Shown: piece after piece, positions 449 through 16,084 of the stretch | Layout: each line of letters starts with the position of its first letter | How positions within the stretch are numbered: position 1 is the stretch's first letter | DNA from: Alphaproteobacteria bacterium | Lineage (GTDB): Bacteria > Pseudomonadota > Alphaproteobacteria > JAAEOK01 | Length of the DNA: 64,000 nt | Reading direction: 5' to 3' | NCBI GenBank assembly: GCA_024244705.1 | Contig: JAAEOK010000037.1 | Coordinates: 1 to 64,000, forward strand | The notes under the pieces: generated by a model | What the model was told of the DNA's origin: nothing | What the model saw: the letters and a program-made list of their open reading frames with translations, nothing else | The model's database searches: none | Program-made: the position numbers and the translations under genes

Positions 449-1672
449 TCAGGCTTCGTTCGGAATCGAGGTAAGCGCTGTCTCGATCCGCTCCAACGCC
501 CAGTCGACCTGGTCCCGGGTAATGACCAATGGGGGCGCGAAACGTATCGTGTTTTCATGTGTTTCCTTGCACAGCAGACCGGCAGCCATCAGCGCTTCAC
601 AATAGGCCCGGGCGCCACCCGCCTCAGGGTGAAATTCGACCGCAAGCATGAGGCCGCGACCGCGAACGTCCTTTATTAGGTTGGTCCGCAGATTCTCCAA
701 CTCGCCGAGAAAATATTCCCCCTGTTCGGCGGCATTCTCGATCATGCCCTCTTCGACCAGCACCCGAAGCGAAGCGCGGGCAACTGCGCATGCAAGCGGA
801 TTTCCGCCGAATGTGCTGCCGTGCTCCCCGGGTCTCAAAATTCCCAAAACTTCGCCGTTCGACAGCACCGCCGAGACCGGATAATAACCGCCGGAGAGCG
901 CCTTTCCGACCAGCGTGAGATCGGCCTCGACGCGCTCATGCTCTTCGGCCAGAAGTTTACCGGTGCGCCCAAGCCCGGTCTGGATTTCGTCAAGAACTAG
1001 CATGACGTTGTGGCGCGAACAGAGGTCGCGGACTTCCGACAGATAGCCGTCCGGCGGAATGATAACACCCGCCTCACCCTGGATCGGTTCGATCAAGACG
1101 CCGACCGTATGCGCCCCGATTGCCGCATCGATCGCCGCGGCGTCGCCGAACGGCACGATTTTGAAACCGGGGGCAAAGGGTCCAAACCCTTCGCGGGCGA
1201 CGGGATCGGTGCTGAAACCGACGATTGCGATCGTGCGTCCGTGGAAACCATTCGCACAGACCACGATCTCGGCTCGATCATGCGGCACCCCCTTGACCTC
1301 GTATCCCCACTTTCGAACGGCTTTGATTGCGGTCTCCACCGCTTCCGCGCCACTATTCATCGGAAGCACCTTGTGGGAGTTGGTCAGAGTGCAAATCTCC
1401 TCATAAAAGGGGGCCAGTTGATCGTTCCGAAAGGCTCGGGATGTCAGCGATAATTTGCTTGCCTGCTCAATCAGAGCCTCCCGAATTCGGGGGTGACAGT
1501 GGCCCTGGTTGACCGCGGAATAGGCGGATAGGCAATCGAGATAGCGATTACCGTCTACGTCCCATACCCAGACGCCCTCGCCGCGCGCCAGCATGACGTC
1601 AAGAGGTTTGTAGTTGTGGGCCCCGAGCTCGGCCTCGATGGCAAGGAAATTCTTTTCTTTGGCTGACGTCAT
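449..1672 (-). CDS. rocD: Ornithine--oxo-acid aminotransferase
   Basis: PLP-dependent class III aminotransferase that moves the delta-amino group of ornithine to 2-oxoglutarate, giving glutamate semialdehyde/pyrroline-5-carboxylate and glutamate in the cytoplasm. Seen: [10 protein letters not shown] near residue 106, GFHGRT near 142, the aspartate motif LVLDEIQTG near 225 and the PLP lysine in [11 protein letters not shown] near residue 257; [10 protein letters not shown] follows. The length of 407 residues is usual for RocD. I chose the ATG at 1672 rather than the TTG at 1684 because GGAG lies 6 bases upstream of that ATG. The neighbouring glutamine-synthetase-like and N-formylglutamate genes suggest a glutamate/ornithine context. 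Another class III omega-aminotransferase specificity is possible, but the [11 protein letters not shown] stretch is typical of OAT. Confidence 0.9.
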
Positions 1673-1836
1673 CTCAGTCTCCAATCAAGGCCAGCGAAGC
1701 GACTGTCCAACATTGCCCTTGGTCATTCCAACCTTATGAAAGCCCCGCCTCAATCGAACCGGCGCCTGCCGGTCATAGCCGGCCGAATGTCACCGCAGCT
1801 TCCTCGACCGGCTAGATCCAGTGCCAACCCCTTCGA

Positions 1837-3150
1837 TTAGTACGCTCGTTCATAAGCCGCGAAAACTTCCTCTTCGGACAAATCTTTTAAATAGTTCATC
1901 TCCCCCCGCTTGTGCTTGAGGTACACGTCGATGAACAGTTCATCGAACCAAGATCGAACTGTTTCGTCCTGTTCCAAGCGTGCCAGCGCCTCATCGAGCG
2001 ATCGGGGCAGCCGTTCGAATCCGCGCGCGGCCAACGTCTCGGCATTCAAGAGCGAAAGGTCTTCCTCGGTTGGCGGTGGCGGCGCCAGACCGTCGCGAAT
2101 CCCTTGCAGGCCCGCTTTCACGATGGCTGCGAGCTGCAGATATGGACTCGCCGCCGCGTCACCAGCGCGAAACTCCACGTTGAACTGCGAGGCTACATCG
2201 TAGCCGGGAATTTCCGCCACCGGGCAGATTCGCATCGATGCTTCACGGTCACGATAGCCTAGGTTGTTGAACGGTGCACTCCATCGATGCGGGGTCAGCC
2301 GCGTGTAGGAAACAACGCTTGGGGCAGTGAACGCAACGATCGACGGCAAATACTTGAGCACCCCTGCAACGAATGCGCCGGGCGTTGCCGCCAGACCGCC
2401 AGGCCCATTGGGATCATGGGTCGCCGGCCGGCCATCAGCGTCGCTGAAACTCATGTGAATGTGGACCCCGTTCCCCACCCCGGACGGCGTGCGTACCGGC
2501 GTAAAGCTTACTCGCCGCCCGCTGCGGAGCGCCGTCGCCCGGGCCAGCTCACGGACGATGAGCGCCTGATCGGCGGCCTTCACGCCGGGTTGCGGGGCGA
2601 CGGTCACCTCATATTGATCTTTGCCATATTCGCGCAAAAATGAATCCGGCTCGGCGCCCGCAGCACGGAGTGCACTGAGCAATGTTTCACCGAACGCCTG
2701 ACCTGCACGGAAGCCGCCCAACGAATAGGCAGTTTCGGTTTCGACCTCGTCATCGACGAATTGAAACTCGTGCTCAAACGCGCTCAATAATGTCAGCCCG
2801 GTCTCCGAATTCATCGACTCCAGCGCATTCGCCAACATGGTTCTCAGGCAACACTCCCATGGCTGCCCGTCGGTGTATGTGATGTCGCCAAGGATGAAAT
2901 TTTCTCTTGGTGACCCGTCGCCGAAATCGACGACGACCTCGGTCTTGTTGTCCGGAACCAGCAATAGGTCACCCAGCGCACCAAATGGGGTCTCCGCTAT
3001 GGCATCGAAGGCGGTAATCTGCATGTTGGTTGGACACCAACCCACGCCGCGGATCCTTCGATCCAGTATGTCGGTGCTCGGGAACCCCTTGCCGCGCACC
3101 TGCCCCGCAATATCGCTGCAACAAATAAACGCGATTTCCTCTCTGATCAC
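1837..3150 (-). CDS. Glutamine-synthetase family protein (gamma-glutamyl ligase, not housekeeping GlnA)
   Basis: ATP-dependent ligase of the glutamine synthetase superfamily, joining glutamate through its gamma-carboxyl to ammonia or an amine. Seen over 437 residues: an N-terminal beta-grasp stretch with DIAGQVRGKGFP (13-24), metal site EHEFQF (126-131), EYGKDQYEVT (174-183), substrate/metal motif NGVHIHMSF (227-235), ATP/phosphate motif TPHRWSAPFNN (286-296) and EFRAGDAAASPY (326-337). Divergence from classical GlnA and the catabolic setting suggest a gamma-glutamyl-amine or glutamate-analogue ligase (PuuA- or GMAS-like); the acceptor amine is unknown. The start is GTG, with GGGAGG 9-10 bases upstream. 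It is divergent from the N-formylglutamate amidohydrolase gene across 227 bp that must hold both promoters. Confidence 0.85.
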   Translation of the reverse strand: MIREEIAFICCSDIAGQVRGKGFPSTDILDRRIRGVGWCPTNMQITAFDAIAETPFGALGDLLLVPDNKTEVVVDFGDGSPRENFILGDITYTDGQPWECCLRTMLANALESMNSETGLTLLSAFEHEFQFVDDEVETETAYSLGGFRAGQAFGETLLSALRAAGAEPDSFLREYGKDQYEVTVAPQPGVKAADQALIVRELARATALRSGRRVSFTPVRTPSGVGNGVHIHMSFSDADGRPATHDPNGPGGLAATPGAFVAGVLKYLPSIVAFTAPSVVSYTRLTPHRWSAPFNNLGYRDREASMRICPVAEIPGYDVASQFNVEFRAGDAAASPYLQLAAIVKAGLQGIRDGLAPPPPTEEDLSLLNAETLAARGFERLPRSLDEALARLEQDETVRSWFDELFIDVYLKHKRGEMNYLKDLSEEEVFAAYERAY

Positions 3151-3377
3151 GTAACTCGCCTCCCGTTTCTAGGTCACTGCGGAATATCGTCATTCTTGGG
3201 CCAGAACGGCGCCGCCTGGTTTGGACATCCGGCAAGATCGCACGCTGGAATGTTTTGTATCAATATTCTAATGCTGGAACTTGCCGCATAATTTGCCAAT
3301 ATCAGGCGTGGCCGCAAAAAGTCGCTTGCCGATGCTAAATCCATCATCGCGGCGCGCTCGAGGATTGGTGTGAAACC

Positions 3378-4175
3378 ATGGATCAGTTTGGTGGTGATAC
3401 GCAGGCGAGCCTTCGTCCGTTATTGAGCGACGACGATATGGTGCCGGTCGATGTTCTCAATCAGCACGGCACGTCACGAATCGTACTCACTTGTGAACAT
3501 GCGGGACAGGCGATTCCGCGATCGCTGGGCGACTTGGGTTTGAGCAGAGAGAATATGGAGCGTCACATCGCCTGGGATATTGGCGCCGCCGGCTTGGCGC
3601 TCTTGATGTCGGAAATGCTCGACGCCGTCTTGGTGCTGCAAAACTTCTCGCGTCTTGTCATTGATTGCAATCGCCCTCCCGACTCGCCGGAATTCATTCC
3701 CGCGGCAAGTGACGGCACGATCGTTCCGAGAAATTCGGACCTTAGCGAATTCGACAGGCAGAACCGCCACAGGGAGATACACCACCCTTACCACGACTGT
3801 ATTTCTGGGATCTTGGACCGTCGCTCGGCGGAACCGAATTTGCCCCTACTGGTGTCCGTCCACAGCTTTACGCCGCGGTTCGATGGTTTCGACCGCCCCT
3901 GGGACCTCGGCCTGCTCTACAACCGAGACAACCGACTCGCTCAGGCAACAAAGCGAAGTCTCGACCTGCTCGACCAATCGGTCCACGTCGCCTTCAATGA
4001 GCCCTATGCGGTGTCCGATATTTCCGATTACACGATACCAATACACGGCGAACGGAGAGGTATCGCTCACTTGCTTATTGAAGTCCGCAACGATCATTTG
4101 GGGTCAACGAGCGGCCAGCAAGCATGGGCAGAGCGCTTGTGTTCGGCACTTTCATTGACGAGCGAAATCGGCTAA
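3378..4175 (+). CDS. N-formylglutamate amidohydrolase family protein
   Basis: Hydrolyses the formamide bond of N-formylglutamate, the last step of one histidine-degradation route, or a related N-acyl amino acid. Seen in 265 residues: CEHAGQ (39-44), DCNRPPDS (96-103), the QNRHREIHHPYH metal/catalytic region (128-139) and VSVHSFTPRF (159-168), the usual landmark motifs of the family. No other hut genes (urocanase, histidase) are present, so a role on another N-formyl or N-acyl amino acid released by the nearby pathways is as likely. The next gene starts 40 bases downstream and is probably co-transcribed. Confidence 0.85.
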   Translation: MDQFGGDTQASLRPLLSDDDMVPVDVLNQHGTSRIVLTCEHAGQAIPRSLGDLGLSRENMERHIAWDIGAAGLALLMSEMLDAVLVLQNFSRLVIDCNRPPDSPEFIPAASDGTIVPRNSDLSEFDRQNRHREIHHPYHDCISGILDRRSAEPNLPLLVSVHSFTPRFDGFDRPWDLGLLYNRDNRLAQATKRSLDLLDQSVHVAFNEPYAVSDISDYTIPIHGERRGIAHLLIEVRNDHLGSTSGQQAWAERLCSALSLTSEIG

Positions 4176-4215
4176 TCGAAGCGCGAACATTGGAATGCCT
4201 GGTGGGGAGGAATTG

Positions 4216-4863
4216 ATGAACGGGTCTCAACCATCTAGCCGCGAGGTTGCACTCGAACCCAGTCAGTCCGCCCTGTTGATCATCGACGTACAAAATTTCT
4301 GCGCCCATCGAAATGGCGGTGAATTCGCCGATCTGTCCGAGGACCAAATCGAAGAACGGTTTGGTTACTATTTCTTGCGCCTCAAGGAATTGGCCATCCC
4401 TAACATGCAGCGCCTTCAGAATGGATTTCGGGACGCCCGAATCGAAGTTATTTTCACGACTATTGAAAGCTTAACCAGAGACGGCCGCGATCGAAGCCTC
4501 GACTACAAGATCACAGGATACAATGTGCCCAAGGGCTCCTGGGATGGAAAAGTCATCGATGAGCTCGCCCCGATTGACGACGAAATCTGGTTGCCCAAAA
4601 CCTCGTCCAGCGTATTTGTGTCCACTCACATCGACTACATACTCCGCAATCTCGGCATGCGGCAGCTGGTCATATGCGGCGTCGTGACGGACCAATGCGT
4701 CGAATCGGCCGTACGTGATGCCTGCGACTTGGGCTACCTTGTCACCCTACCTATCGATGCCTGTGCGACCTACTCCCAGGAACGGCACGACCGCTCGCTG
4801 ACGGCCATAAAGGGGTATTGTCGCCAGCGCACCACCGATGAAATCCTGGCTGAGATCGCATAG
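4216..4863 (+). CDS. Isochorismatase-family cysteine hydrolase (first of three)
   Basis: Cysteine hydrolase of the isochorismatase superfamily, whose members hydrolyse vinyl ethers or amides such as nicotinamide, N-carbamoylsarcosine and maleamate. The catalytic triad is visible: Asp in LLIIDVQNF, Lys in LPKTSSS and Cys in VVTDQCVESAVRDA. The start at 4216 is set by GGGGAGG at 4204-4210, 5 bases upstream; an in-frame ATG at 4195 precedes this Shine-Dalgarno sequence and is rejected. The protein is 215 residues, normal for the family. It follows the N-formylglutamate amidohydrolase gene in the same direction, so an amidase role is the simplest guess. The exact substrate cannot be read from the sequence. 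Confidence 0.82.
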   Translation: MNGSQPSSREVALEPSQSALLIIDVQNFCAHRNGGEFADLSEDQIEERFGYYFLRLKELAIPNMQRLQNGFRDARIEVIFTTIESLTRDGRDRSLDYKITGYNVPKGSWDGKVIDELAPIDDEIWLPKTSSSVFVSTHIDYILRNLGMRQLVICGVVTDQCVESAVRDACDLGYLVTLPIDACATYSQERHDRSLTAIKGYCRQRTTDEILAEIA

Positions 4864-4934
4864 TCGATCGGCGATCGCGATTCGCCAAGGCCGTCAACTC
4901 GGGTGCAGGCCGGCCATTCTTCATCGACGGTTTT

Positions 4935-6059
4935 TCAGTCCATAATTGATTTCACGGTATCCATGGTCCAAGGGTCCGGCGGCACGTCCTGATCGATTCG
5001 CCAGCCATAATTGGGTACACGAGCAAGGCACCTCGTCACCTCTGGCACCCCTCGCCAAGGATCGACACCATGCGGCGCGATCACATCCGCGAATACCCCT
5101 TGTTCAGCCTGAACCGGAAACAGGCCATCGACAATTCGACGATCAATATCCTCGGCGGACAATCGATTTATCCGGCGGTCGTCGCGGGCGGCGCTGATCT
5201 GGGGCCAAACAATCGCCGCTACATCCCCTTCCGCAATCGCCTCGCGGCCAAGCGCGGCACAGAACTGCGCCGGGCTGACGTCGATGTGTCGGCCGTCGCT
5301 GACACCATTGGCTCCCGGGCGTTCTTGGCATTCCGCTATGGTGAATGTGTGGTCAAATCGCCGCTCTGTGACCGCCCTATCGAGATGCGCGTTCATCTCC
5401 ACGGTCCGTGGCTTGACGGAAACGACGGTTGGCATGCCGGTGGCGCGCAAGTTGGCGGCCCTGCTCGACAAGAAGACCCTATCATTCGATAGTAATCTGG
5501 ATTGCGGCAGACGAAGCGCGCTCAGCAAGAGCGTCGTTTTGCCCGCGCCCTTGTGTCCGACAAACAGAACCACACGACCGGAAATTTCGACGGCTGCGGC
5601 ATGATGCAGGACGGCCCCCGTTTGCCATCCACGAAGCGTGGCCAGCTCGCGGATGACACGCATCGCGGCCACCCGCGCACATCCGCGCGAACCTGAACCG
5701 ATGATCTGAATTTCTGACTTGCCGGCCAAAACGTAGAACGCGCGCAATTGGTCGTCCCTGACGATGAGTTCACCGGCGCCTCGTTTCAGCACCGGATAGT
5801 CGGCGGCGTTCGCGCTATCGAGCGTGAAGCACCGAGCACCTGGAGCACCCATCCAATTCCGTTGATCAAGAAGCTGCTGGAAACGACCGATATCGATTCG
5901 CGCGCTGACTTTCAGAGCCGCGGCCCTGCCGCCGGATTGGAACCAAGGCGAAAGAAATTCGCCTAGCCACAGAAGGTCGGAGGCGTCGTCGGCGGAGACG
6001 GTAATCCTTAACCCTAAATACTCAAACGTCAGACGGTGCGATTCAATGCGGCGGCTCAA
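4935..6059 (-). CDS. HPr-kinase-like P-loop protein of the glycan island
   Basis: 374-residue protein with a single P-loop, GHKGAGKTT (168-176), preceded by HHAAAVEI as in the C-terminal kinase fold of HPr kinase/phosphorylase, and followed by LLSNDRVFL (189-197). HPr kinases usually have a DD pair at that last position; here it is ND. The N-terminal 160 residues are not recognised. HprK-like proteins of this kind occur beside nucleotidyltransferases and in peptide- or envelope-modification clusters, where they phosphorylate small substrates or peptides rather than HPr. The start is TTG overlapping the TGA of the upstream kinase gene (TTGA), implying translational coupling. The actual phosphoacceptor is unknown. 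Confidence 0.65.
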   Translation of the reverse strand: MSRRIESHRLTFEYLGLRITVSADDASDLLWLGEFLSPWFQSGGRAAALKVSARIDIGRFQQLLDQRNWMGAPGARCFTLDSANAADYPVLKRGAGELIVRDDQLRAFYVLAGKSEIQIIGSGSRGCARVAAMRVIRELATLRGWQTGAVLHHAAAVEISGRVVLFVGHKGAGKTTLLLSALRLPQSRLLSNDRVFLSSRAANLRATGMPTVVSVKPRTVEMNAHLDRAVTERRFDHTFTIAECQERPGANGVSDGRHIDVSPAQFCAALGREAIAEGDVAAIVWPQISAARDDRRINRLSAEDIDRRIVDGLFPVQAEQGVFADVIAPHGVDPWRGVPEVTRCLARVPNYGWRIDQDVPPDPWTMDTVKSIMD

Positions 6060-6994
6060 TTAGCCCTCCGCTGTGCTCGAATTCTCTGCTGCCCGCCATT
6101 TTCGCGGGCTTCCATCGTCGTTAGGATGGCGTGCAATTTGGTGAGCGGCAATTCGCTATTTTCAGTTTGCCAATAGGCACGGAAATGGGCTGCTTCAGCC
6201 AAAGCGAACACTCTCCAGAACTCTCGATTGTTCCCATAGTCGGCGCAATCGGAGGCACTTGCATAGCCGTCAAGAAAATGTGCTTCGGATTGACCGTCAA
6301 GCGGCCATCGATACCAAACACGAGCCAAGTCTAGGGCGAGCATACCCACCCGGATGGAACCATTGTCTACCACAACAGGATAGCCGTTTTCGTTTATGAC
6401 GATATTCTCCGGCGCGTAGTCTCCGTGAAGCAAACCACATGAAATCGAGGTCGGGCACTTTGTTCGGGCAATTTTTCGTACGAATTCATGCTGGACCTGG
6501 GTCAAATTCCCCATTTCGAACAATTCGGCACTCAACCGCTCTAGAGGGTCTCTCAAGGCGCGCGCAGTTTGCCGACCTTGCCCATATCTCTGTTCAACCT
6601 GCGGCGGCAGGATTGTCGCATGGACTTTGCCGAGTCTCGCCCCCAAGAAACGAAGCAAACGCGGTTGACGACAAATCGTGTCGTCGACCTTCCCGTCAAC
6701 CCATTCCTCGATCGTGGCACAGCCGCGCCAAGCCAGGACCCGCGAAAAATCATCCGCCGCCAGAAGTCCACTCAAGGCTCGTACCCGCTCGGCGATGTCG
6801 GCATTGTCGAACCGGCGCCCCTTCACTGTCACGCCGTCCTTGAATGCCAAACGAAACGAAGCGCGCGACGAACCGGCCGCCGGCAGCCCGGTGATCACCT
6901 CCGCCTCGATCAACGGAGTCGCGACCTCATCTATCAGAGCGATAAGATCGGGGCCCAATAGGTCAGGCTCGATGTGGCGCATCGTCAACTTCAT
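6056..6994 (-). CDS. Aminoglycoside-phosphotransferase-like kinase
   Basis: Small-molecule kinase of the APH/choline kinase fold, predicted to phosphorylate a sugar, amino alcohol or glycan precursor. Seen: catalytic loop HGDYAPENIVIN near residues 190-201, with the Asp and Asn typical of the family, and the metal-binding Asp in VVVDNGSI near 207-214 (DN where many members have DW or DF). The start is uncertain. An ATG at 7030 lies deep within the preceding glycosyltransferase gene; the ATG at 6994 (or 6982) shortens the overlap to about 30 bases and is preferred, though no clear Shine-Dalgarno sequence is visible. It is coupled to the HPr-kinase-like gene downstream. Two different kinase folds side by side suggest phosphorylated glycan components. 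Confidence 0.7.
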   Translation of the reverse strand: MKLTMRHIEPDLLGPDLIALIDEVATPLIEAEVITGLPAAGSSRASFRLAFKDGVTVKGRRFDNADIAERVRALSGLLAADDFSRVLAWRGCATIEEWVDGKVDDTICRQPRLLRFLGARLGKVHATILPPQVEQRYGQGRQTARALRDPLERLSAELFEMGNLTQVQHEFVRKIARTKCPTSISCGLLHGDYAPENIVINENGYPVVVDNGSIRVGMLALDLARVWYRWPLDGQSEAHFLDGYASASDCADYGNNREFWRVFALAEAAHFRAYWQTENSELPLTKLHAILTTMEARENGGQQRIRAQRRAN

Positions 6995-9113
6995 CGCTCG
7001 TGGCGGCAATGGGGCGACCGGACAACCCATCGCTCATACGGGCGCGAGCCCCGATATCCGGTGATTCGTCTCTCGCCTTTGCACTGTCACTGCCGCTGAC
7101 GGCTGTAGCAGCGCGAAGATCGATGTAGAGTTGCCGAATCCGGGCATAGCCCGGCAGATTGTCATAGTTTCGAAAATCCTTCTGACGAACAGAGCTTTTC
7201 GCCCCTACCAGTGCGCCCGCAATCAGCCCCATCAAACTGAAAAAGTTGTCTTCATTTTGATCTTCAAGGCACCGCGTCAGGAATTGCGTCTCATGGTCGT
7301 CGATCCAGTCCAGGTGCTGCCACACGTTGCGCCATTTTCGCAATGTGAAATAGCGCTCGTAGGCGAGCTGCGGTGTCCATTCGGTACCATGTAGACCGAA
7401 TGTTCCCTCGGCATCGGGAGTTGCGGCGTCATACCGCCCCGATTCAATCCGATATCCGTCATCCTGAATCGCTCGATTTCGAGAAAATACCGTTGTTTCG
7501 CGGGTCCATGGATAGTTTCGAACGATATCCCGGCGGCATATCTTAATGCCTTGGATGGTTCGACCGAGATGGACGTCAAAAAGATTGCCGACATAAATCG
7601 CGACCTTTTCGTCGGTCGCCGAAATTTTCTTGTACAACTCTTGAATGGAATCCGGATAGAGCAGCATGTCTTCGTCGAGCTGAACGAAGTACGGCGTTTC
7701 GCAGGAGTCCAACATGTGCTGGAGGGCATCGGTCAGCGGCGCGACATTTTCAATGATCACGAGCCGGAACACGCTGTCCTGGACGGCGACTCGCTCGATA
7801 CACTCCCTATAGGTGGGCGCGCCGACAGTCGTCACAAAAACGGTAACCTCGTTCGAAAGATCGACCGGACGTGAATTTATGGGCTCAGCGACGGAGCGGC
7901 CTTTGTCGATGATCACATTCCGAAAAATATCAAAGAACTCAGGGGCGCGCCGCTCCCAAAGCCAGGGCTTCATATCCCCCAGCAGTCTTTCCGACAGACG
8001 GTCATAATTCTCGATCGCCTTGACAACGCCGTGTTCGATGGCGTCGAGCGTGCCGTCCACCAAATAGCCATTGAGATCATCTTCGATGAGTTCCGTCATA
8101 TTGCTAACGGCGGTGCTCACGATCGTGCAACCGCAGGCTGCCGCCTCCAAAGGTGGATTGGGTGCGCCCTCGGATTCGCTTGCGCAGACGATGACGGTTG
8201 CACTGTTGTACCACTCTGCCATTTGCTCAGAGATGAAGCCGCCGTGACCGTATGATTCGACAAAGCGCGCTTCGAAATCGATCCCCTGCGCATTCATCCG
8301 CTCCCGCAACGGAGCTATGAAGCCGTCATACCCATCCGCAATCGGGCCGTCTTGCGAGCCGACCCAAATCACTTTCTGGTTCCTTTCCATTCGCGGAACG
8401 CTGACGTGGAAAAGCTCGTGATCCACACCGTAGGGAATCGTAAACGTGTTGGGGATCGGGCCCAACTTCCGCCAATATTCCCGGTCCGAAATCAATAGTG
8501 CATCGGATGAGCGATATACGCGCAAAATATCAGGGGATCTTTCGGCCCATCCGGAATTGACCGCCCCGACAAGCGGAACATCCCAACCGCGAGCGTCGAG
8601 TTCGTGCCGAACGCCGCAGACCGACGCCGCGTCCAGAACGAAAAATAGATCGGGGCAATTGTCTCCCACGATGGCGGCGATCGGGAGCCTATCCTTTCCG
8701 ATCATGGCCGGAGCCAATTCTACGGCAAAATCGCCGGGCGCGTTTTTCGACAGCCCGGCCGCGTAACCGCGGCAAGCCGATTCTTCGACGTCAAAGATGA
8801 TCCTGAGGACAGGCACCGGGCTTACCAATTGGCCTGTTCGACAAAGCTCGTCGATATCGCCTGTGAGTTCCGCCAAAGTCCCGTGATCGGCTTTCGGTGA
8901 ACGCTTCCGCGTTTCGACACAGTGGCACTCGACGTCATTCGTCGTGGTCGCGACAGGATTTCCCAAACAAATGTCATATCGATAACCTCGCCGGCCCCGC
9001 CATTGGCGTGCGCCGGTCATACTACACCGGCGTCGCTGGGTGAACGACTGTATCCAACGATTTCGCCAAATCAAATTGCTTCGACAGAATGCCGTCCGTG
9101 CGGTATTGAGCAT
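6963..9113 (-). CDS. Two-domain glycosyltransferase (GT4-like plus GT-A domain)
   Basis: Predicted cytoplasmic glycosyltransferase of up to 716 residues. The first half has a GT-B/GT4 pattern: IWVGSQDG, then ASESEGAPNPPLEAAACG (the E-x7-E donor-binding motif) followed by TELIEDDLNGYLV. The second half starts with EVTVFVTTVGAPTYRECI and has a GT-A type acidic motif, FVQLDEDMLLYPDSI, so the protein probably adds two sugars or acts processively. The N-terminus up to about residue 60 is arginine-rich and unconserved-looking; ATG at 9020 is an alternative start and neither has a strong Shine-Dalgarno sequence. The gene overlaps the APH-like kinase gene downstream. It belongs to the surface-glycan set with the Wzm/Wzt exporter. 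Confidence 0.78.
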   Translation of the reverse strand: MLNTARTAFCRSNLIWRNRWIQSFTQRRRCSMTGARQWRGRRGYRYDICLGNPVATTTNDVECHCVETRKRSPKADHGTLAELTGDIDELCRTGQLVSPVPVLRIIFDVEESACRGYAAGLSKNAPGDFAVELAPAMIGKDRLPIAAIVGDNCPDLFFVLDAASVCGVRHELDARGWDVPLVGAVNSGWAERSPDILRVYRSSDALLISDREYWRKLGPIPNTFTIPYGVDHELFHVSVPRMERNQKVIWVGSQDGPIADGYDGFIAPLRERMNAQGIDFEARFVESYGHGGFISEQMAEWYNSATVIVCASESEGAPNPPLEAAACGCTIVSTAVSNMTELIEDDLNGYLVDGTLDAIEHGVVKAIENYDRLSERLLGDMKPWLWERRAPEFFDIFRNVIIDKGRSVAEPINSRPVDLSNEVTVFVTTVGAPTYRECIERVAVQDSVFRLVIIENVAPLTDALQHMLDSCETPYFVQLDEDMLLYPDSIQELYKKISATDEKVAIYVGNLFDVHLGRTIQGIKICRRDIVRNYPWTRETTVFSRNRAIQDDGYRIESGRYDAATPDAEGTFGLHGTEWTPQLAYERYFTLRKWRNVWQHLDWIDDHETQFLTRCLEDQNEDNFFSLMGLIAGALVGAKSSVRQKDFRNYDNLPGYARIRQLYIDLRAATAVSGSDSAKARDESPDIGARARMSDGLSGRPIAATSDEVDDAPHRA

Positions 9114-9249
9114 GGACGCGACACCAATTGCCGATTAGCGGGTAAATCGGTCATTTCTCCGACACCGCGATTCGGCCTTATGCAGGTTAGTCTGCGCCGG
9201 CGCGTTGTCAGATCGTTCTAATTTCAGCGGATCCCAAATCATTCCTGCG

Positions 9250-10353
9250 ATGGATTTCAAAAGCAAAGTCCTACTCTGCAAGAAGCTTTGTGTTGGCGGA
9301 TTTGAGGCTGGCGAATTGCGACGCTTCGCCGGCGAATCTGACGAGTTGGCCGAGTTCGCCGAGTTTGCGCTGCGCAATCAACAACGCCTGCCGCTAATCC
9401 GGGCCTTGGAGAAAACGGACCTCATTTCGCGGCTTCCCGAAAGTGTGATCGGCCCGCTGCAACGTTACAGCCGATCGCAAGCGGCAAGGCATGACGTGCT
9501 GTGCGGGATTCTTTTGGAAATCGATACGATGCTGCGGTCCCATCGAATCGATTACATTCTCCTCAAGGGGCCGGCCTACGCGGAGCATTTGTACGGTGAT
9601 CGTGATGGGCGCCATTTCGACGATATCGATATTCTAGTCCGGCTGGACGACCACAACCGCGCCGAATCCCTGCTATCGGAAATCGGTTTCAAGCCGGACG
9701 AGGCGCCGCGCCCTTGGGATGCTTTGCTGCGAAATTTCGAGCATGCAATCACACTCTCTCGTGATGGCTACAAGGTGGATCTGCATAGGCAATTGCGCAG
9801 GCGGCCGGCCTATCGGATCAATGACGCAGAAATATGGTCCACGCGGCAAGAACGCAAAGTCGCCGGTGTCGAGGTCGGCCTGTTGTCTCCTGAATACGAA
9901 CTGGCGGCGACGGCCTTGGAAATCGCGCACGACCTTGAACGCAATGCCTGTACCGTCAAAACGGCGCTCGACCTCTACCTACTGATTCGCAGGGCCGAAG
10001 GTCAAATCGAGTGGTCCCGTTTCTTTGCCGATCGCGAACTCGAAAACATTGAACCTCTCGTAACCAATGTATTCGCCCTCGTTCTTGGTCTCACGGGCTC
10101 ATGGGACGAATTTCCGACTCTGTCGGCCTACCTGCGACCAATGGAAAAGGGCTTTCCGATCAAAGATCCGGTGTCGGTCGCCGCGCTTTTCGATCGGGAG
10201 GTCGATGACGGGCGGAACCGTGTCTGGTTCCGCAAAGTCTATCCCGGCAACTCGATAATCTATTGGTCTTGGCTGGGTATGGCCTTTCTTTGCTCACGGA
10301 GGCCGCCACGTTTCCTGAGCGCGATGCAACAGCAAGCCGCCAAACGCCAGTAG
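9250..10353 (+). CDS. Stand-alone nucleotidyltransferase-fold protein (NTP_transf_5 type)
   Basis: 367-residue protein resembling the uncharacterised nucleotidyltransferase family found with HprK-like kinases. Seen: ILLKGPAYAEHLYGD near residues 103-117 and the acidic DDIDILV at 124-130, which matches the metal-binding DxD of the pol-beta nucleotidyltransferase fold; the rest is helical. I prefer the ATG at 9250 over an upstream TTG at 9205, since the family's N-terminal helix begins soon after it. It is divergent from the glycosyltransferase and convergent with the Wzt gene. Family precedent links such proteins to lasso-peptide and envelope-glycan clusters, but the reaction is not established. 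Confidence 0.72.
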   Translation: MDFKSKVLLCKKLCVGGFEAGELRRFAGESDELAEFAEFALRNQQRLPLIRALEKTDLISRLPESVIGPLQRYSRSQAARHDVLCGILLEIDTMLRSHRIDYILLKGPAYAEHLYGDRDGRHFDDIDILVRLDDHNRAESLLSEIGFKPDEAPRPWDALLRNFEHAITLSRDGYKVDLHRQLRRRPAYRINDAEIWSTRQERKVAGVEVGLLSPEYELAATALEIAHDLERNACTVKTALDLYLLIRRAEGQIEWSRFFADRELENIEPLVTNVFALVLGLTGSWDEFPTLSAYLRPMEKGFPIKDPVSVAALFDREVDDGRNRVWFRKVYPGNSIIYWSWLGMAFLCSRRPPRFLSAMQQQAAKRQ

Positions 10354-10414
10354 AACTAGTCTTAGGGAGAGTAGGACGGGAGAGCCATCAACCTTCCGAT
10401 CCAGCCCGTCGAGA

Positions 10415-11191
10415 TTATCGATCTTGCAGCTTGGGCTTTCCCGTGAACTGGCCAGCATATTGGTCGGCAACCTCGTCGACATCGCCAATGGCTTTGATTT
10501 CCCCCCGTTCCAACAGAAGTGCCTTCGTACAGACCGCCTTCACCAAAGCCATTCGATGGCTGGCGAGCACGAGAATATTTGTGCGATCGATCAGATTCAT
10601 CATGCGCCGCTCGGCCTTCTCGATGAAACTGTCATCGCCGGCGCCAATCCATTCGTCGAGCAGAAGGACGTCCGGTTCGATCGAGGTCGAAATCGCGAAC
10701 GCGAGGCGCAAGACCATTCCGCTCGAATAGGTTCGCAATGGCATAGACAGGTATTCGCCGAGTTCGCTGAATTGGGCGATGTCTTCGATTTTTTCATCGA
10801 TCTCTCTTGGATGCATGCCAAGGAGGATGCCTCGAAGAGCGATATTCTCGATCCCGCTGGCGTCCATATCGAAACCGAGACCGGCATTGAACACAGCGGA
10901 AATACGACCGTCTATTTGCACCGAGCCCTTGACCGGCGCATAGACCCCGGACAAGACACGAAGTAATGTCGATTTGCCCGCGCCGTTGCGACCGATCAAC
11001 GCGAGTCGTTCGCCGTCTCGAATCTGAAGGTCAATTTCGCGCAGCGCGGTAACCCGTGTTCCCTGGCGTTTCTCCTGATGAATCCTTCCCCCGATCGGAA
11101 GCCCGCCCAATATTTGGTGGCGCAGGGATCGCCGCTCGGGACGCACATGATCGAATTCGATCCACACATTTTTCAGGTCGATAGATGCCAA
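10415..11191 (-). CDS. Polysaccharide ABC exporter, ATP-binding subunit (Wzt/TagH/RfbE type)
   Basis: ATPase that drives export of undecaprenol-linked O-antigen, capsule or teichoic-type polymer across the inner membrane. Seen in 258 residues: an N-terminal extension typical of RfbE/Wzt, Walker A GRNGAGKST near residue 87, signature YSSGM near 158 and Walker B VLLLDEW near 178, followed by the D-loop and H-loop (ASHRM). It ends soon after the nucleotide-binding domain, so it lacks the C-terminal carbohydrate-binding domain that reads the polymer end in long Wzt proteins; substrate choice is presumably set elsewhere. It is the partner of the permease gene 9 bases upstream. Confidence 0.9.
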   Translation of the reverse strand: MASIDLKNVWIEFDHVRPERRSLRHQILGGLPIGGRIHQEKRQGTRVTALREIDLQIRDGERLALIGRNGAGKSTLLRVLSGVYAPVKGSVQIDGRISAVFNAGLGFDMDASGIENIALRGILLGMHPREIDEKIEDIAQFSELGEYLSMPLRTYSSGMVLRLAFAISTSIEPDVLLLDEWIGAGDDSFIEKAERRMMNLIDRTNILVLASHRMALVKAVCTKALLLERGEIKAIGDVDEVADQYAGQFTGKPKLQDR

Positions 11192-11200
11192 CTCGGCCCT

Positions 11201-11986
11201 CTATAGCCAGAACGGGATTCGGTTACGAAGCCGCTTAAAGACCGCGATCGTAATCGGCCATCCGATAGCAAGTGCGGCGACGGCGACAAGCCAGTGTGTC
11301 GCCTTGGGAACAACATTCAGGAGCGGGCTACGCACCAATTCGATGAAATGATAAAAGGGATTCAGTTCAAGAAACTCGGCCCGAATACCAATCATGTCTG
11401 GCATCCATATGATTGGTGTCATGAAAAAAACGATGCGCAGCACGCTCGTCGCAATCTCGGCGAGGTCGCGGAACCGGGTCGCGAAGATGCCCATAAGCAG
11501 CGCAACCCAAACGGCGTTGAGCAAGATAAGAGCAAAGCCCGGAATGAAAAGCAGCGCCGTCAATCCGACTCTGAGATCGAAAATGATCGCAACGGCGACG
11601 AAGACCGAAAGCTGATAACCGAAAATGATGACATGCTGCCAGACGGTCTTGAGAATGAACGTCGAAAGCGGGATATAGATTTCAAGAATGAACCGCTGAG
11701 ATTGAATGAACGCGCGGCATCCACTGGTAACCACACTCGACAGCAAGGTCCAAGTAATGAAGCCGAGCGCAAGGTGGGGGATATATGCGGCCGGGTCGCG
11801 GCCAAAAAGAATCGAATAGAGCGTGCCCAACGAGCCGACGAATATCCCCGTCGTGAGCGCGATCCATATCAGTCCCATGTGGGATCTACGATACCGACTG
11901 CGCAGATCATACCACCCAAGACGACTCCACAACCGCCATCTTAGTGCGCCCGCGACAATGTCATTGATCGCAGAGACCGCTGCCAC
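11201..11986 (-). CDS. Polysaccharide ABC exporter, permease subunit (Wzm type)
   Basis: ABC-2 family integral membrane protein forming the channel for the Wzt ATPase. Seen: the cytoplasmic interface helix WYDLRSRYRRSHMGLIW near the N-terminus, then about six hydrophobic segments, with FFMTPIIWMP and LNPFYHFIELVRSP near the C-terminal third, as in the Wzm/KpsM group. The 261-residue form starts at GTG 11986, placed by AAAGGAG at 11992-11998 with a 5-base spacer; the longer open frame from TTG 12016 would put that Shine-Dalgarno sequence inside the coding region. The 5' side faces a long AT-rich gap. Confidence 0.88.
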   Translation of the reverse strand: MAAVSAINDIVAGALRWRLWSRLGWYDLRSRYRRSHMGLIWIALTTGIFVGSLGTLYSILFGRDPAAYIPHLALGFITWTLLSSVVTSGCRAFIQSQRFILEIYIPLSTFILKTVWQHVIIFGYQLSVFVAVAIIFDLRVGLTALLFIPGFALILLNAVWVALLMGIFATRFRDLAEIATSVLRIVFFMTPIIWMPDMIGIRAEFLELNPFYHFIELVRSPLLNVVPKATHWLVAVAALAIGWPITIAVFKRLRNRIPFWL

Positions 11987-11991
11987 CTCGT

Positions 11992-11998
11992 CTCCTTT
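11992..11998 (-). promoter_or_regulatory. Ribosome binding site of the Wzm permease gene
   Basis: Minus-strand AAAGGAG lies 5 bases before the GTG at 11986 and decides that start over the upstream TTG at 12016. Confidence 0.6.
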
Positions 11999-12453
11999 CA
12001 GATCGAATCGGTCCAACGGTCACACGCCGAACCCGGTTGGTTGCTATGTCTATCACGCAAATCGGATCATGCAATGCCGATGACAAAGGGCGCCGCCGCG
12101 CTCATCGACGACGAGTCTGCAACCACGCGCGATCGGTAACCGATGGGAGCGGTCGTCTCCCGATGAATCAGGGGATAGGCATTTCCGCCGTTTCGGTCGG
12201 AAATGATTGAGGCCCCGTGCCTCCGCCGGCCAGACGAGCCGCACGCGTGTCCAAATCTGGCGGCATGAATCGATTCCACCGGGCGGGCATGTAATAGGGG
12301 CCTCTGCATAAGAATGTAGAATGTATATTACTTATTTTCACTTAAAGATTTATATCCTTACACTTTATATCAGACTCTAAATCTCAGGAATACTATGCAT
12401 TACTAATTGCCGAATCGCGTAGACTATGATAACCAGCCACCAAGTAAATTTCT
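11999..12453. other. Non-coding gap with AT-rich block between divergent genes
   Basis: About 450 bases separate the Wzm gene (minus) from the oxygenase gene (plus). The half next to Wzm has ordinary base composition and no credible gene. Bases about 12300-12445 are strikingly AT-rich compared with the rest of the window, with several TATA-like strings, and lie directly upstream of the oxygenase gene. I read this as a promoter/regulatory block, but no clean -35/-10 pair with 17-base spacing stands out. Confidence 0.5.
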
Positions 12454-13266
12454 TTGAAAATCGGTCAATTTTCCGTGAGTGAACAGATCCATGTGCCGGC
12501 AAGATCACCCGGGGAATTCACCCCCACCACGGCGAAAGACGGGTGGCTAAGCGGTGCGCCATTGGAAATGCTCAGTCCGAACGTCGCTCGCATCCACATA
12601 AACGAATTCGAACAAGTCCTGGACCTCGCCGAAGAGACATTGGCCAACGCCAGGCCGGACCAATCGGGCGTTATCGAAGACCGGACAGGACTGGGCAAAC
12701 TCATTAAACGGAACAGCATCAAGTCAGGGAAAATGGCGTTTTTCCCGGAGCGCCCTTGCGAAACCCGAGTTCTCGGCCTCTACGAATTCATACTGCAGAC
12801 TTGCCGCGACTACCTGAAATGCTCGGCGATCGGACACATTCTACGGCAAAGGGCGGCGCAAGACGAGGACGTAACGAACATAAGAATGGAGCGGTGTTGG
12901 GCCATCGACCAACGCCAGAACGATTATCAGATCCTGCACGCCCATATACCGAATCTATTGTCGGGAATTGTCTACCTCCAAATCCCGCCGAGCATGGAAG
13001 TCTCGACATATCCTGACGGCATCTTGACGTTGATCGAAACCAATCCGTTCGTCATCCTTCCATCGCCGGGCGACATGTACATATGGCCTTCTTATATGCT
13101 GCACAACGTCTACCCGTTCCGGGGAGACGGCCGGCGCGTCGCGATCTCTTTCAATATCCGACGTAGCGGTCCCGGCAGCGACGACTGTGTTTACTACCGG
13201 CCGACCTATGTTGAAGTCAGTCGGGACCAGTATTACGACCGCGCCAATCCCGCTCAGCCAGATTGA
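12454..13266 (+). CDS. Putative 2-oxoglutarate/Fe(II)-dependent oxygenase
   Basis: About 270 residues ending in the double-stranded beta-helix core of the putative 2OG-Fe(II) oxygenase family. Seen: proximal metal-site region ILHAHIPNLLSGIVYLQIP near residues 151-169, then PSPGDMYIWPSYMLHNVYPF near 202-221 with the distal His, and RRVAISFNIRR with the 2-oxoglutarate-binding Arg. The start is uncertain: TTG 12454, GTG 12475 and ATG 12568 are all in frame and none has a good Shine-Dalgarno sequence. It follows an AT-rich block and sits at the edge of the glycan-export island. Hydroxylation of a cell-surface or small-molecule substrate is possible, but the target is unknown. Confidence 0.68.
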   Translation: MKIGQFSVSEQIHVPARSPGEFTPTTAKDGWLSGAPLEMLSPNVARIHINEFEQVLDLAEETLANARPDQSGVIEDRTGLGKLIKRNSIKSGKMAFFPERPCETRVLGLYEFILQTCRDYLKCSAIGHILRQRAAQDEDVTNIRMERCWAIDQRQNDYQILHAHIPNLLSGIVYLQIPPSMEVSTYPDGILTLIETNPFVILPSPGDMYIWPSYMLHNVYPFRGDGRRVAISFNIRRSGPGSDDCVYYRPTYVEVSRDQYYDRANPAQPD

Positions 13267-14179: not shown

Positions 14180-15097
14180 TCACTCATAGGGGTGATGTTT
14201 TCGCCAATGCTCGGCAATATCGACGCCCCGGGCGAACCAGACCTTGTCGTGCCCGAGCACATAGTCGAGAAACCGCTCGAGTCCGGCCGCCCGCGCGGGC
14301 CTGCCGACTATTCGATCATGCACCGCGAGCATCATCATCTTGGGCTCGCCTTGCTCGCCTTCCCTATACAATGTGTCGAAGGCGTCTTTCAAGTAAGTGA
14401 AGAAGTGATCGGCGGTGACGAACCCCATGTGTTCATTAGACCGGTTGTCGTTGGTCTCATAAGAGATGGGGATCACCAAATGCGGCTTGCCGGTCACCGT
14501 GACCCAATAGGGGAGCTCGTCGCCGAGGGAATCTCTGTCGTACAGAAATCCGCCCTCCTCGACCAGAAGCCGTCGCGTATTGGGGCTCGGCCTACCGGTC
14601 ATCCAGCCCACCGGCCGCTGTCCGGTCAGTGCCGTGATTCCTGCGACGGCAAGATCGACATGCGCGCGCTCTTCTTCCTCCGGAACGCTTTGATAATCGA
14701 TCCATCGCCAGCCGTGGCTGACAATTTCGTGCCCCGCCTCGGCCGCCGCTTCGGCGACCTCCGGATTGCGCTGCAATCCCATAACAACGGCCCACAAACT
14801 GGCTTTGATCTGGCGCTCTGCCAAAATGCGCAAGATCCGCCAGATGCCGCGCCGGCCGCCATATTCAAAGGCGGATTCGACGATCATATTTCGCTGCCCG
14901 TCATAGGCCGGAAAGCCTGTGTCCGTCAGCATGTTCTCTGAGTGGGTGTCGCCGTGCAGAATATTGTATTCGCCGCCGACCTCGTAGTTGACCGCGATCG
15001 TCAGGCAAATATTGGCACGATTGGGCCAATTCGGGTTCGGGAGCGTGCGGCCGTAGCCGACCATATCGCGGGGGTACTTGGCTCCGTCTGCCACCAT
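14180..15097 (-). CDS. PuuE-type polysaccharide-deacetylase-fold amidohydrolase, copy 1
   Basis: Member of the NodB-fold family that includes the cofactor-free allantoinase PuuE. Seen in 305 residues: YPRDMVGYG near the start, VNYEVGGEYNILHGD, ESAFEYGGRRGIWR, GHEIVSHGWRWIDYQ near 120-135, PVGWMTGRPSPNTRRLLVEE and GGFLYDRDSLGDELPYW, ending in AVHDRIVGRPARAAGLERFL. These are the family's landmark stretches. The ATG at 15097 has AAGGAG upstream. It lies 33 bases after the second copy and shares its architecture. Likely hydrolysis of a cyclic amide or ureide C-N bond; allantoin itself is not proven, as no other allantoin genes are seen. Confidence 0.85.
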   Translation of the reverse strand: MVADGAKYPRDMVGYGRTLPNPNWPNRANICLTIAVNYEVGGEYNILHGDTHSENMLTDTGFPAYDGQRNMIVESAFEYGGRRGIWRILRILAERQIKASLWAVVMGLQRNPEVAEAAAEAGHEIVSHGWRWIDYQSVPEEEERAHVDLAVAGITALTGQRPVGWMTGRPSPNTRRLLVEEGGFLYDRDSLGDELPYWVTVTGKPHLVIPISYETNDNRSNEHMGFVTADHFFTYLKDAFDTLYREGEQGEPKMMMLAVHDRIVGRPARAAGLERFLDYVLGHDKVWFARGVDIAEHWRKHHPYE

Positions 15098-15130
15098 CTC
15101 CTGCTCCTTTGCCTTTCCAAATTTCCCCGC

Positions 15131-16054
15131 CTAGGGCGTTCCACCATAGGGATGCGCCGCCATCCAATGGCGGGCGATTTCCTCGCCCGTGCAAATCCAC
15201 ACCAGATCGTGGTCGAGTACGTAGTCCAAGAATCGGGCGAGGCCTACCGCGCGCCCGGGTCGACCGATCAACCTGTCGTGAAGCCCCACCGACATCATCT
15301 TCGGCTCGGTCTGGCCTTCCGCGTAGAGCAGGTCGAAGGTGTCCTTCATATAGATGAAGAAGTCATCGGCCGTGCTGAACCCGCTGTTCCCATCGAACCG
15401 ATTGTCATTCGTTTCCAACGAATATGGGATGACCAGATGCGGCTTGCCCGTCACCGTCACCCAATACGGCAATTCGTCGTTAAACGCGTCACGATCATAG
15501 ATGAATCCCCCCTCTTCGACCAACAGCCGTCGCGTATTGGGGCTGCACCGTCCGGTCATGCACCCGACCGGGCGATTGCCGGTCAGCACCCGAAGATCCT
15601 CGACGGCTCGCCGAATATGCTCGCGTTCGACGTCTTCCGGCACGTGCTGGTAATCGATCCATCGCCAGCCGTGGCTGACCATTTCATGGCCCGCCTCGGT
15701 CATCGCCGTGGCAACCTCCGGATTGCGCTCGAGCCCCATGACTACGGCAAACACGCTCATTCGGACTTGGCGCGCGGCGAACATCTCGAGGAGGCGCCAG
15801 ACACCCCGTCGGCTTCCATATTCGAACGCCGATTCGGTGACCATGCTGCGCGCGCCCGGGACAGCCGGTAGACCGAAATCGGTCATCAAGTACTCGGATG
15901 TGTCATCGCCGTGGAGAATATTGAGCTCCCCACCGGCTTCATAATTTGGCGCAAAATTCACCGCGATCCGCGCGCCACCCGGCCATTGGGGGTCGGGCAA
16001 GTTGGCACCGTAGCCAACCATATCCCTGGGGTACGAGTGGTTCGATGTCGACAT
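15131..16054 (-). CDS. PuuE-type polysaccharide-deacetylase-fold amidohydrolase, copy 2
   Basis: Tandem paralogue of the gene immediately downstream, 307 residues. Seen: YPRDMVGYGANLPDPQWPG, NYEAGGELNILHGDD, ESAFEYGSRRGVWRLLEMF, GHEMVSHGWRWIDYQHVPED, PVGCMTGRCSPNTRRLL and a GLHDRLIGRPGRAVGLARFL C-terminal block. The two copies keep the same order of blocks but differ in many positions (for example PVGCMTGR here against PVGWMTGR), so they may act on different intermediates. The ATG at 16054 with GAGG upstream is preferred to GTG 16057. It follows the permease-ATPase gene by 30 bases in the same direction. Confidence 0.85.
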   Translation of the reverse strand: MSTSNHSYPRDMVGYGANLPDPQWPGGARIAVNFAPNYEAGGELNILHGDDTSEYLMTDFGLPAVPGARSMVTESAFEYGSRRGVWRLLEMFAARQVRMSVFAVVMGLERNPEVATAMTEAGHEMVSHGWRWIDYQHVPEDVEREHIRRAVEDLRVLTGNRPVGCMTGRCSPNTRRLLVEEGGFIYDRDAFNDELPYWVTVTGKPHLVIPYSLETNDNRFDGNSGFSTADDFFIYMKDTFDLLYAEGQTEPKMMSVGLHDRLIGRPGRAVGLARFLDYVLDHDLVWICTGEEIARHWMAAHPYGGTP

Positions 16055-16084
16055 CACGACCTCAATCGGCTGACCTTGATTCCC

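Follow-up and report, generated by a model that had tools for sequence, protein, structure and literature searches.

Organization of the gene island

The window, i.e., the whole 64,000-nucleotide stretch of alphaproteobacterial DNA that was analysed, carries at positions 4935-13266 a gene island with a GC content of 56.2%, compared to 59.1% in the remainder. The flanks are composed of nitrogen-catabolism genes encoding an aminotransferase, a glutamine synthetase, an N-formylglutamate amidohydrolase, isochorismatase-like hydrolases, and hydantoinase B. Three genes on the minus strand overlap end to end and encode an HprK-like P-loop protein (4935..6059), an APH-fold kinase (6056..7030; PF01636, E 1.6e-11), and a two-domain glycosyltransferase (GT; 6963..8816; Glyco_trans_1_4, E 1.8e-14), which combines a GT4-like domain and a GT2-like domain with the motif DEDMLLYP. 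The overlap amounts to 4 nt between the APH and HprK-like genes and to 68 nt between the GT and APH genes. A divergent gene on the plus strand (9205..10353) encodes a nucleotidyltransferase-fold protein of the NTP_transf_5 family (E 1.7e-38), which forms, together with the two kinase-fold proteins, what we refer to as the trio. The genes for a Wzt-like exporter ABC ATPase (10415..11191) and a Wzm-like ABC2 permease (11201..12016), both on the minus strand and both assigned with Pfam and NCBIfam, stand apart and are followed, after a gap of 437 bp, by a 2OG-Fe(II) oxygenase gene (2OG-FeII_Oxy_5; 12454..13266, plus strand; E 7.9e-17), the window genes being split over three transcription units. 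All the genes listed in the original prediction were present, with one boundary revised: the GT very likely starts at the GTG at 8816 and not at 9113, because MPVLRIIFDVEE matches the relative in locus L119, MPRLRIIYDVVGW.

The exporter proteins scored 279 bits (Wzt; NF050108, cut-off 400) and 253 bits (Wzm; NF050109, cut-off 380) against the models of the mycobacterial galactan exporter, and are of the same general type without being its equivalogs. The 258-aa Wzt contains no Wzt_C, and it is indeed a short form without the carbohydrate-binding domain (CBD), as had been predicted. A comparison with an anti-phage library gave no meaningful match.

Features of the trio proteins

For the HprK-like protein, motif, Pfam/NCBIfam, and AlphaFold/Foldseek analyses place it within the HPr kinase/HprK-related superfamily, with conserved H153, a Walker A motif GxKxxGKT, and D193. 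The best NCBIfam model was HprK_rel_B (TIGR04355; E 4.6e-10), where its 39 bits fell far short of the cut-off of 200; the relatives tested reached 31-54 bits, with the P-loop region alone being matched, and the protein does not belong to this family. Nor is it a member of HprK_rel_A (TIGR04352), where it scored 29 bits against a curated cut-off of 200. The AlphaFold model (pLDDT 81) had its best Foldseek matches in PEPCK (E 1e-9). In a tree, the HprK-like proteins of the trio loci formed one distinct clade, supported at 100/100 against HprK_rel_B. N192-D193-R194 is conserved in this family, and the alignment revealed Asn in place of the first acid of the HPr-kinase acidic pair in all seven trio proteins, giving N-D-R compared to D-D-R in HPr kinase. 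A wider alignment indicated that HprK_rel_B-type proteins share N-D-R, which on its own is therefore no signature of the trio. Judging from the residues, the Asn-for-Asp change could weaken or alter catalysis, and kinase activity of the HprK-like protein is therefore not a given.

The APH protein belongs to PF01636 (44.9 bits; gathering threshold 23.2), and K70, H202-x-D204, N209, and D222 were invariant among five aligned members; the best PDB match of its profile was choline kinase, a weak one (E 5.6e-4). Membership in NTP_transf_5 (PF14907), a family that to our knowledge still bears the label 'uncharacterised' in Pfam, was likewise clear for the third protein (133 bits; gathering threshold 31.2). 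Its motifs comprise K121-G122, D140-x-D142, and an acidic residue at 192 (numbering from 9205), and across the seven loci D128-x-D130 was invariant, with an acid at 180 in every sequence (A9 numbering). The closest folds to its AlphaFold model (pLDDT 83) were ANT(2'')-Ia and MenT1, which are nucleotide-transferring enzymes, LnuA, and FKRP, a ribitol-phosphate transferase, the last being a weak match (E about 0.01). Nucleotide-binding and catalytic motifs are thus kept in all three proteins and the ATP sites look intact, with N-D-R instead of D-D-R in the HprK-like protein.

Recurrence of the trio in other phyla

Besides the window protein, the HprK clade has six members, found in Gemmatimonadota and Acidobacteriota. 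An NTP_transf_5 gene was nearby in all seven loci and an APH kinase gene in six, the two kinase genes being adjacent in five. In L120 (Gemmatimonadota), the genes are arranged in a single direction as Wzm, Wzt, NTP_transf_5, APH, HprK, and GT; the order is the same in L132, the GTs of whose genome are situated in L119. L134 contains APH, an MsbA-like ABC transporter, NTP_transf_5, GTs, and HprK, with the APH gene on the opposite strand at a distance of 6 kb. Among the Acidobacteriota, L142 and L143 bear overlapping HprK and APH genes with NTP_transf_5 and a UDPGT-like GT, while L141 shows NTP_transf_5 followed by HprK, with no APH nearby. L134 and L141-L143 were found by HprK alone; NTP_transf_5 was present in all four and APH in three. 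Neither gene was detected in any of ten control loci of related HprKs (L144-L153). The NTP_transf_5 proteins of the window, L134, L141, L142, and L143 group in one clade (100/99) that spans three phyla and sits apart from the NTP_transf_5 proteins of the window's own class, while those of L120 and L132 belong to another clade. Conservation of the trio is strong, and the HprK-like/APH/NTP_transf_5 set of the original prediction was confirmed, with glycosyltransferases alongside it in other phyla. Since the trio recurs and its motifs are kept, the set withstands both objections foreseen in the original prediction, namely confinement to this genome and defective ATP-binding sites.

The association with Wzm/Wzt was confirmed in part: these genes were present in three of the seven loci (two beyond the window), with Wzt_C in L120 and L132, and absent from four. 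Of these, L134 has the MsbA-like ABC transporter and L142 an MFS gene, and L141 and L143 show no exporter within view. Within the class, the picture was different. The 79 NTP_transf_5 neighbourhoods surveyed often adjoin exopolysaccharide genes and lack APH and Wzm; neither a trio APH nor a trio-type HprK (at least 100 bits) lay beside any of them, and the class sample therefore holds no such cassette. Searches of 142 class genomes and plasmids with the HprK-like protein gave matches confined for the most part to the P-loop, none of them a full-length ortholog, and among 379 Pseudomonadota the only genome with a full-length ortholog was that of the window. Similarly, the GT retrieved only its own genome's three copies from 385 class genomes at 1e-20, and the L120 APH had no plasmid match at 1e-6. 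The 2OG oxygenase, included in the set originally, was absent from all six related loci and probably lies outside the cassette.

Proposed function of the trio

The trio is probably a mobile cassette, previously undescribed, that adds phosphate or phosphodiester groups to an exported sugar compound, given that in this genome and in two further phyla the same three genes accompany genes for sugar building and export. In the more specific form of this reading, to which we give roughly even chances and which draws on the analogy with PsmK/PsmN of pseudomycoidin, the three transferable enzymes would decorate a glycoside or lipid-linked glycan, itself the product of the neighbouring GTs, with phosphate and with groups attached through a phosphodiester. 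For the APH protein, Klebsiella O7 provides a precedent of an APH-like kinase acting on a glycan (PMC11231755). One kinase would phosphorylate a hydroxyl of the acceptor or of a sugar, after which the nucleotidyltransferase-fold enzyme would form a phosphodiester from this phosphate or from a hydroxyl. The group so attached might be a sugar, as seems to be the case with PsmN in pseudomycoidin, or a nucleotidyl, as with ANT(2''), and the product would leave through the exporter of each locus, which in the window is Wzm and the short Wzt. A polymer, the product first envisaged, is not what all the loci suggest, since in two Acidobacteriota members the trio is accompanied by a UDPGT-like GT. We consider it possible, though with less confidence, that the cassette moves horizontally and builds a new class of exported glycoconjugate containing phosphodiesters, with the Asn-Asp HprK subfamily being a kinase of new specificity.

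Alternatively, the enzymes could make a donor, with APH phosphorylating a free sugar or a choline- or alditol-like compound, NTP_transf_5 activating or transferring it (as in LicA/LicC/LicD or FKRP-type systems), and HprK serving as a second kinase or a regulator. The choline kinase and FKRP matches point this way, but both are weak and at the level of the fold; moreover, the loci showed no cytidylyltransferase of the LicC type (GT-A fold), and the top folds of NTP_transf_5 include the nucleotide-transferring ANT(2'')-Ia and MenT1, which makes this reading unlikely.

Somewhat more doubtful is the chain termination proposed originally, in which APH and/or HprK would stop the elongation of a polysaccharide exported by Wzm/Wzt by phosphorylating its non-reducing end, like WbdD or ORF6 of Klebsiella O7. 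In Klebsiella O7, an APH-like kinase that acts on the glycan has been proven to terminate the chain (PMC11231755), a kinase is part of WbdD in E. coli O9a (PMC3482155), and Wzm/Wzt and Wzt_C do occur in some of the trio loci. However, known terminators join a kinase to a methyltransferase and possess a coiled-coil ruler, the window kinases have no methyltransferase domain, four of the seven loci are without Wzm/Wzt (two having the UDPGT-like enzyme), and NTP_transf_5 would be left unexplained. In known cases, the CBD recognises the modified chain end (PMC9445017), and the window Wzt lacks the domain that reads such caps. Capping had been deduced from this very lack, a deduction that finds no support given that the L120 and L132 Wzt proteins have the CBD and other loci differ in exporter; with exporters of such different types, a chain cap read by the exporter is probably not what the modification provides.

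It is improbable that the substrate of HprK and NTP_transf_5 is a ribosomal peptide, which the GTs and exporter would then decorate and export. The sole experimentally studied HprK/nucleotidyltransferase pair that we found does act on lasso peptides (PMC9266682, PMC8498205), and L137 has both families inside a lasso-type cluster, but the L137 HprK falls outside the trio clade, and the scanned window genes (0-20 kb) include no asparagine-synthetase-like cyclase, B1/B2 proteins, PqqD/RRE, or transglutaminase-like protease. Finally, an accidental neighbourhood with no joint function, to which the three transcription units, the lack of synteny in the class (0/79 NTP_transf_5 neighbourhoods), and the single genome with a full-length HprK ortholog might point, is very improbable and already contradicted by the presence of the set in six further genomes from two additional phyla, some of whose loci were retrieved via HprK alone, and by the gene overlaps and clade structure; it would stand for the oxygenase only.

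If phosphodiester-linked sugars are made by the cassette, HprK/nucleotidyltransferase pairs would constitute a general toolkit for phospho-decoration and not only a lasso-peptide oddity. HprK-related kinases beyond sugar regulation have hardly been studied, the lasso-peptide pairs being the best experimental example found, and the trio offers a tractable handle, with small enzymes that are probably soluble, a well-delimited set of genes, and a clear readout by 31P NMR or mass shift of an envelope extract.

Comparison with known systems

We found no literature joining HprK-like, APH, and NTP_transf_5 proteins, in a search that covered few subscription papers and hence does not prove absence. 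HprK-related kinase A (TIGR04352) with NTP_transf_5, as in L028 of the window's own genome, has an HprK-like/NTP_transf_5 pair in common with the trio; however, both proteins are of other types there, the HprK being a fusion with a PqqD-like domain (read from the sequence), and APH was not found on the 6.7-kb contig. The closest curated family is HprK-related kinase B (TIGR04355), which forms the neighbouring clade and shares Asn-Asp-Arg with the trio. The eight B-like loci examined (L144-L150 and L152, two of which were scored directly against TIGR04355 at 323 and 348 bits) contained neither NTP_transf_5 nor a trio-type APH over about 10 kb or up to the contig end. The WbdD and Klebsiella O7 ORF6 systems resemble the window in having Wzm/Wzt, GTs, and a kinase of eukaryotic/APH-like fold, whereas the trio unites NTP_transf_5 with two kinases whose folds are unrelated, with no methyltransferase domain seen, beside a CBD-less Wzt in the window and with an exporter type that is not conserved.

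In pseudomycoidin biosynthesis, PsmK is the kinase that acts on Ser, and attachment of hexoses to the resulting phosphate depends on PsmN (PMC9266682, PMC8498205), a direct glycosyltransferase role of PsmN being unproven (PMC9266682). As in the window, an HprK-like kinase adjoins a nucleotidyltransferase-fold protein beside an exporter. In contrast, the window shows no lasso cyclase or protease among its scanned genes (0-20 kb) and bears an additional APH kinase and several GTs, and its HprK belongs to a distinct clade with N-D-R, compared to E-D in the lasso-type HprK of L137.

Organization of the island and of related loci in the host genome

All the genes named in the original prediction, which described a glycan-export island, are present in the window as open reading frames supported by Pfam or NCBIfam. 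On the minus strand, a two-domain (GT4-like and GT2-like) glycosyltransferase gene (GT, 8816-6963) is followed first by the gene of an APH-fold kinase (7030-6056) and then by that of a divergent P-loop protein related to HprK (6059-4935); owing to overlaps of 68 and 4 nt, these three genes look like a single operon. The minus strand also carries Wzm at 12016-11201 and, at 11191-10415, a short Wzt, and the NTP_transf_5 (9205-10353) and 2OG oxygenase (12454-13266) genes are on the plus strand. A mechanical ORF list starts the GT at 9113, very probably mistakenly; begun at GTG 8816, the protein reads MPVLRIIFDVEE, in agreement with the beginning of its relative in locus L119. The island is flanked by nitrogen-catabolism genes and has a slightly lower GC content (56.2% vs. 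59.1%). A pair of adjoining paralogous polysaccharide-deacetylase-like genes lies inside the nitrogen-catabolism region (14180-16057).

Two GT relatives were found elsewhere in the same genome, on contigs C33 (39% identity) and C61. The C33 locus L024 (9263-13860) combines a GT4-GT2 paralog with two GT2b genes and one GT2c gene, and since the GT2b and GT2c genes match counterparts in the Gemmatimonadota locus L120, the pathway may be split between the window island and L024. A second HprK/NTP_transf_5 pair, in locus L028 of contig C4 (L028 positions 1340-5310), consists of an HprK_rel_A-type PqqD-HprK fusion (53 bits) and an NTP_transf_5 protein of a different clade from that of the window. 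Elsewhere, with no tie to the island, the genome carries initiating sugar-phosphate transferases and a Wzy_C/ligase-type protein, which makes lipid-linked glycans possible.

Conservation of the trio

The HprK-like, APH and NTP_transf_5 genes (the trio) are not conserved within the organism's own class. NTP_transf_5 occurred in 76 of 385 class genomes, often near exopolysaccharide genes as read from sequence, and in 79 such neighbourhoods Wzm and the trio APH were absent throughout and no HprK of the trio type reached 100 bits. The HprK searches covered about 1,200 genomes from three phyla, with few candidates per genome scored in the large searches, so that absence counts are not firm.

Outside this genome the set is kept in Gemmatimonadota and Acidobacteriota. 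A scan with the GT alignment returned relatives in these two phyla, Planctomycetota and others, including L120 (Gemmatimonadota bin1194), where genes for a glycosyltransferase-like protein, Wzm, Wzt, NTP_transf_5, APH, HprK, GT2b, and GT2c share one direction and GT2 lies on the opposite strand. HprK-profile searches yielded L132, ordered as L120 until the contig ends; L134, whose APH gene is on the opposite strand, 6 kb from HprK; and the Acidobacteriota loci L141, L142, and L143. Counting the window, NTP_transf_5 was close to the trio-type HprK in seven of seven loci and APH in six (in L143 confirmed by Pfam, E 3e-14), and HprK and NTP_transf_5 members were only 18-32% identical to the window proteins. 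Four loci (L134 and L141-L143) were found by HprK alone, hence without selection for partner genes; NTP_transf_5 was present in all four and APH in three. The same fetch and search at ten control loci of other HprK relatives (L144-L153) found neither gene. A conserved glycosyltransferase-like protein, "GTup", recurs next to the trio in L120 (18236-19348), L132 (6274-7365), and L141 (7938-8912); the L120 copy had no Pfam or NCBIfam match. Separately, Gemmatimonadota locus L137 (3318-12739) is a cluster of the lasso-peptide type in which HprK and two NTP_transf_5 genes accompany asparagine-synthetase-like, PqqD-like, and transglutaminase-like genes.

Active sites and phylogeny

The HprK-like protein retains H153, Walker A, and D193, and all seven trio HprKs have Asn at the first position of the acidic pair of HPr kinase (1jb1 alignment: ADDRV vs. 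SNDRV). HprK_rel_B-type proteins also have this Asn; among the other HprK-like proteins examined, Asp or Glu predominates at this position. The HprK-like model (pLDDT 81) best matched PEPCK, a fold cousin of HPr kinase. In APH, K70, H202-x-D204, N209, and D222 are invariant among five members, and the K-G, D-x-D, and third acid of NTP_transf_5 are conserved among seven; the structures that the NTP_transf_5 model (pLDDT 83) matched best include ANT(2'')-Ia, MenT1, and LnuA, and FKRP ranked lower. All three proteins look able to act on nucleotides, and the Asn of the HprK-like protein may or may not permit kinase activity. Among other HprK-like genes, two in tandem in L135 (8853-11278) have the acidic pair replaced by ANDN and SCDT, with no trio partners found nearby, and the neighbours of an uncharacterised one on an Agrobacterium Ti plasmid (L023, 7941-9071) include cysC, a sulfatase-like gene, and an MFS transporter.

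The seven trio members formed one clade in the HprK tree (support 88/77 against everything and 100/100 against HprK_rel_B), which grouped with HprK_rel_B (95/95); with scores of at most 54 bits against NCBIfam cut-offs of 200, they fall outside every curated family. The window NTP_transf_5 grouped with those of L134, L141, L142, and L143 (100/99), separate from own-class proteins, and those of L120 and L132 belong to a second type. Transfer of the trio between phyla is the simplest reading of these trees. Mis-binning of the window contig is conceivable given the stated assembly contamination of 4.4%, but three contigs of the assembly bear related GT genes.

Export and proposed function

The loci share the trio and glycosyltransferases (UDPGT-like in L142 and L143), while the exporter differs: a short Wzt in the window, a Wzt with a C-terminal carbohydrate-binding domain (Pfam Wzt_C) in L120 and L132, an MsbA-like ABC transporter in L134, an MFS gene in L142, and none in view in L141 and L143. 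From this pattern, the trio probably decorates the product independently of any single export route. The lack of this domain in the window Wzt had been taken to suggest that the kinases cap chain ends; known caps are recognised through it (PMC9445017), so its absence speaks against capping.

Two precedents lead us to infer, with even odds, a phosphate/phosphodiester cassette that would add phosphate or a phosphodiester to a glycoside or a lipid-linked glycan. In Klebsiella O7, the action of an APH-like kinase on a glycan has been proven (PMC11231755). The nearest experimental precedent for the trio is PsmK/PsmN of pseudomycoidin, in which PsmK phosphorylates Ser and the one or two hexoses on the phosphate require PsmN, though reviewers do not commit to PsmN as the actual glycosyltransferase (PMC9266682, PMC8498205).
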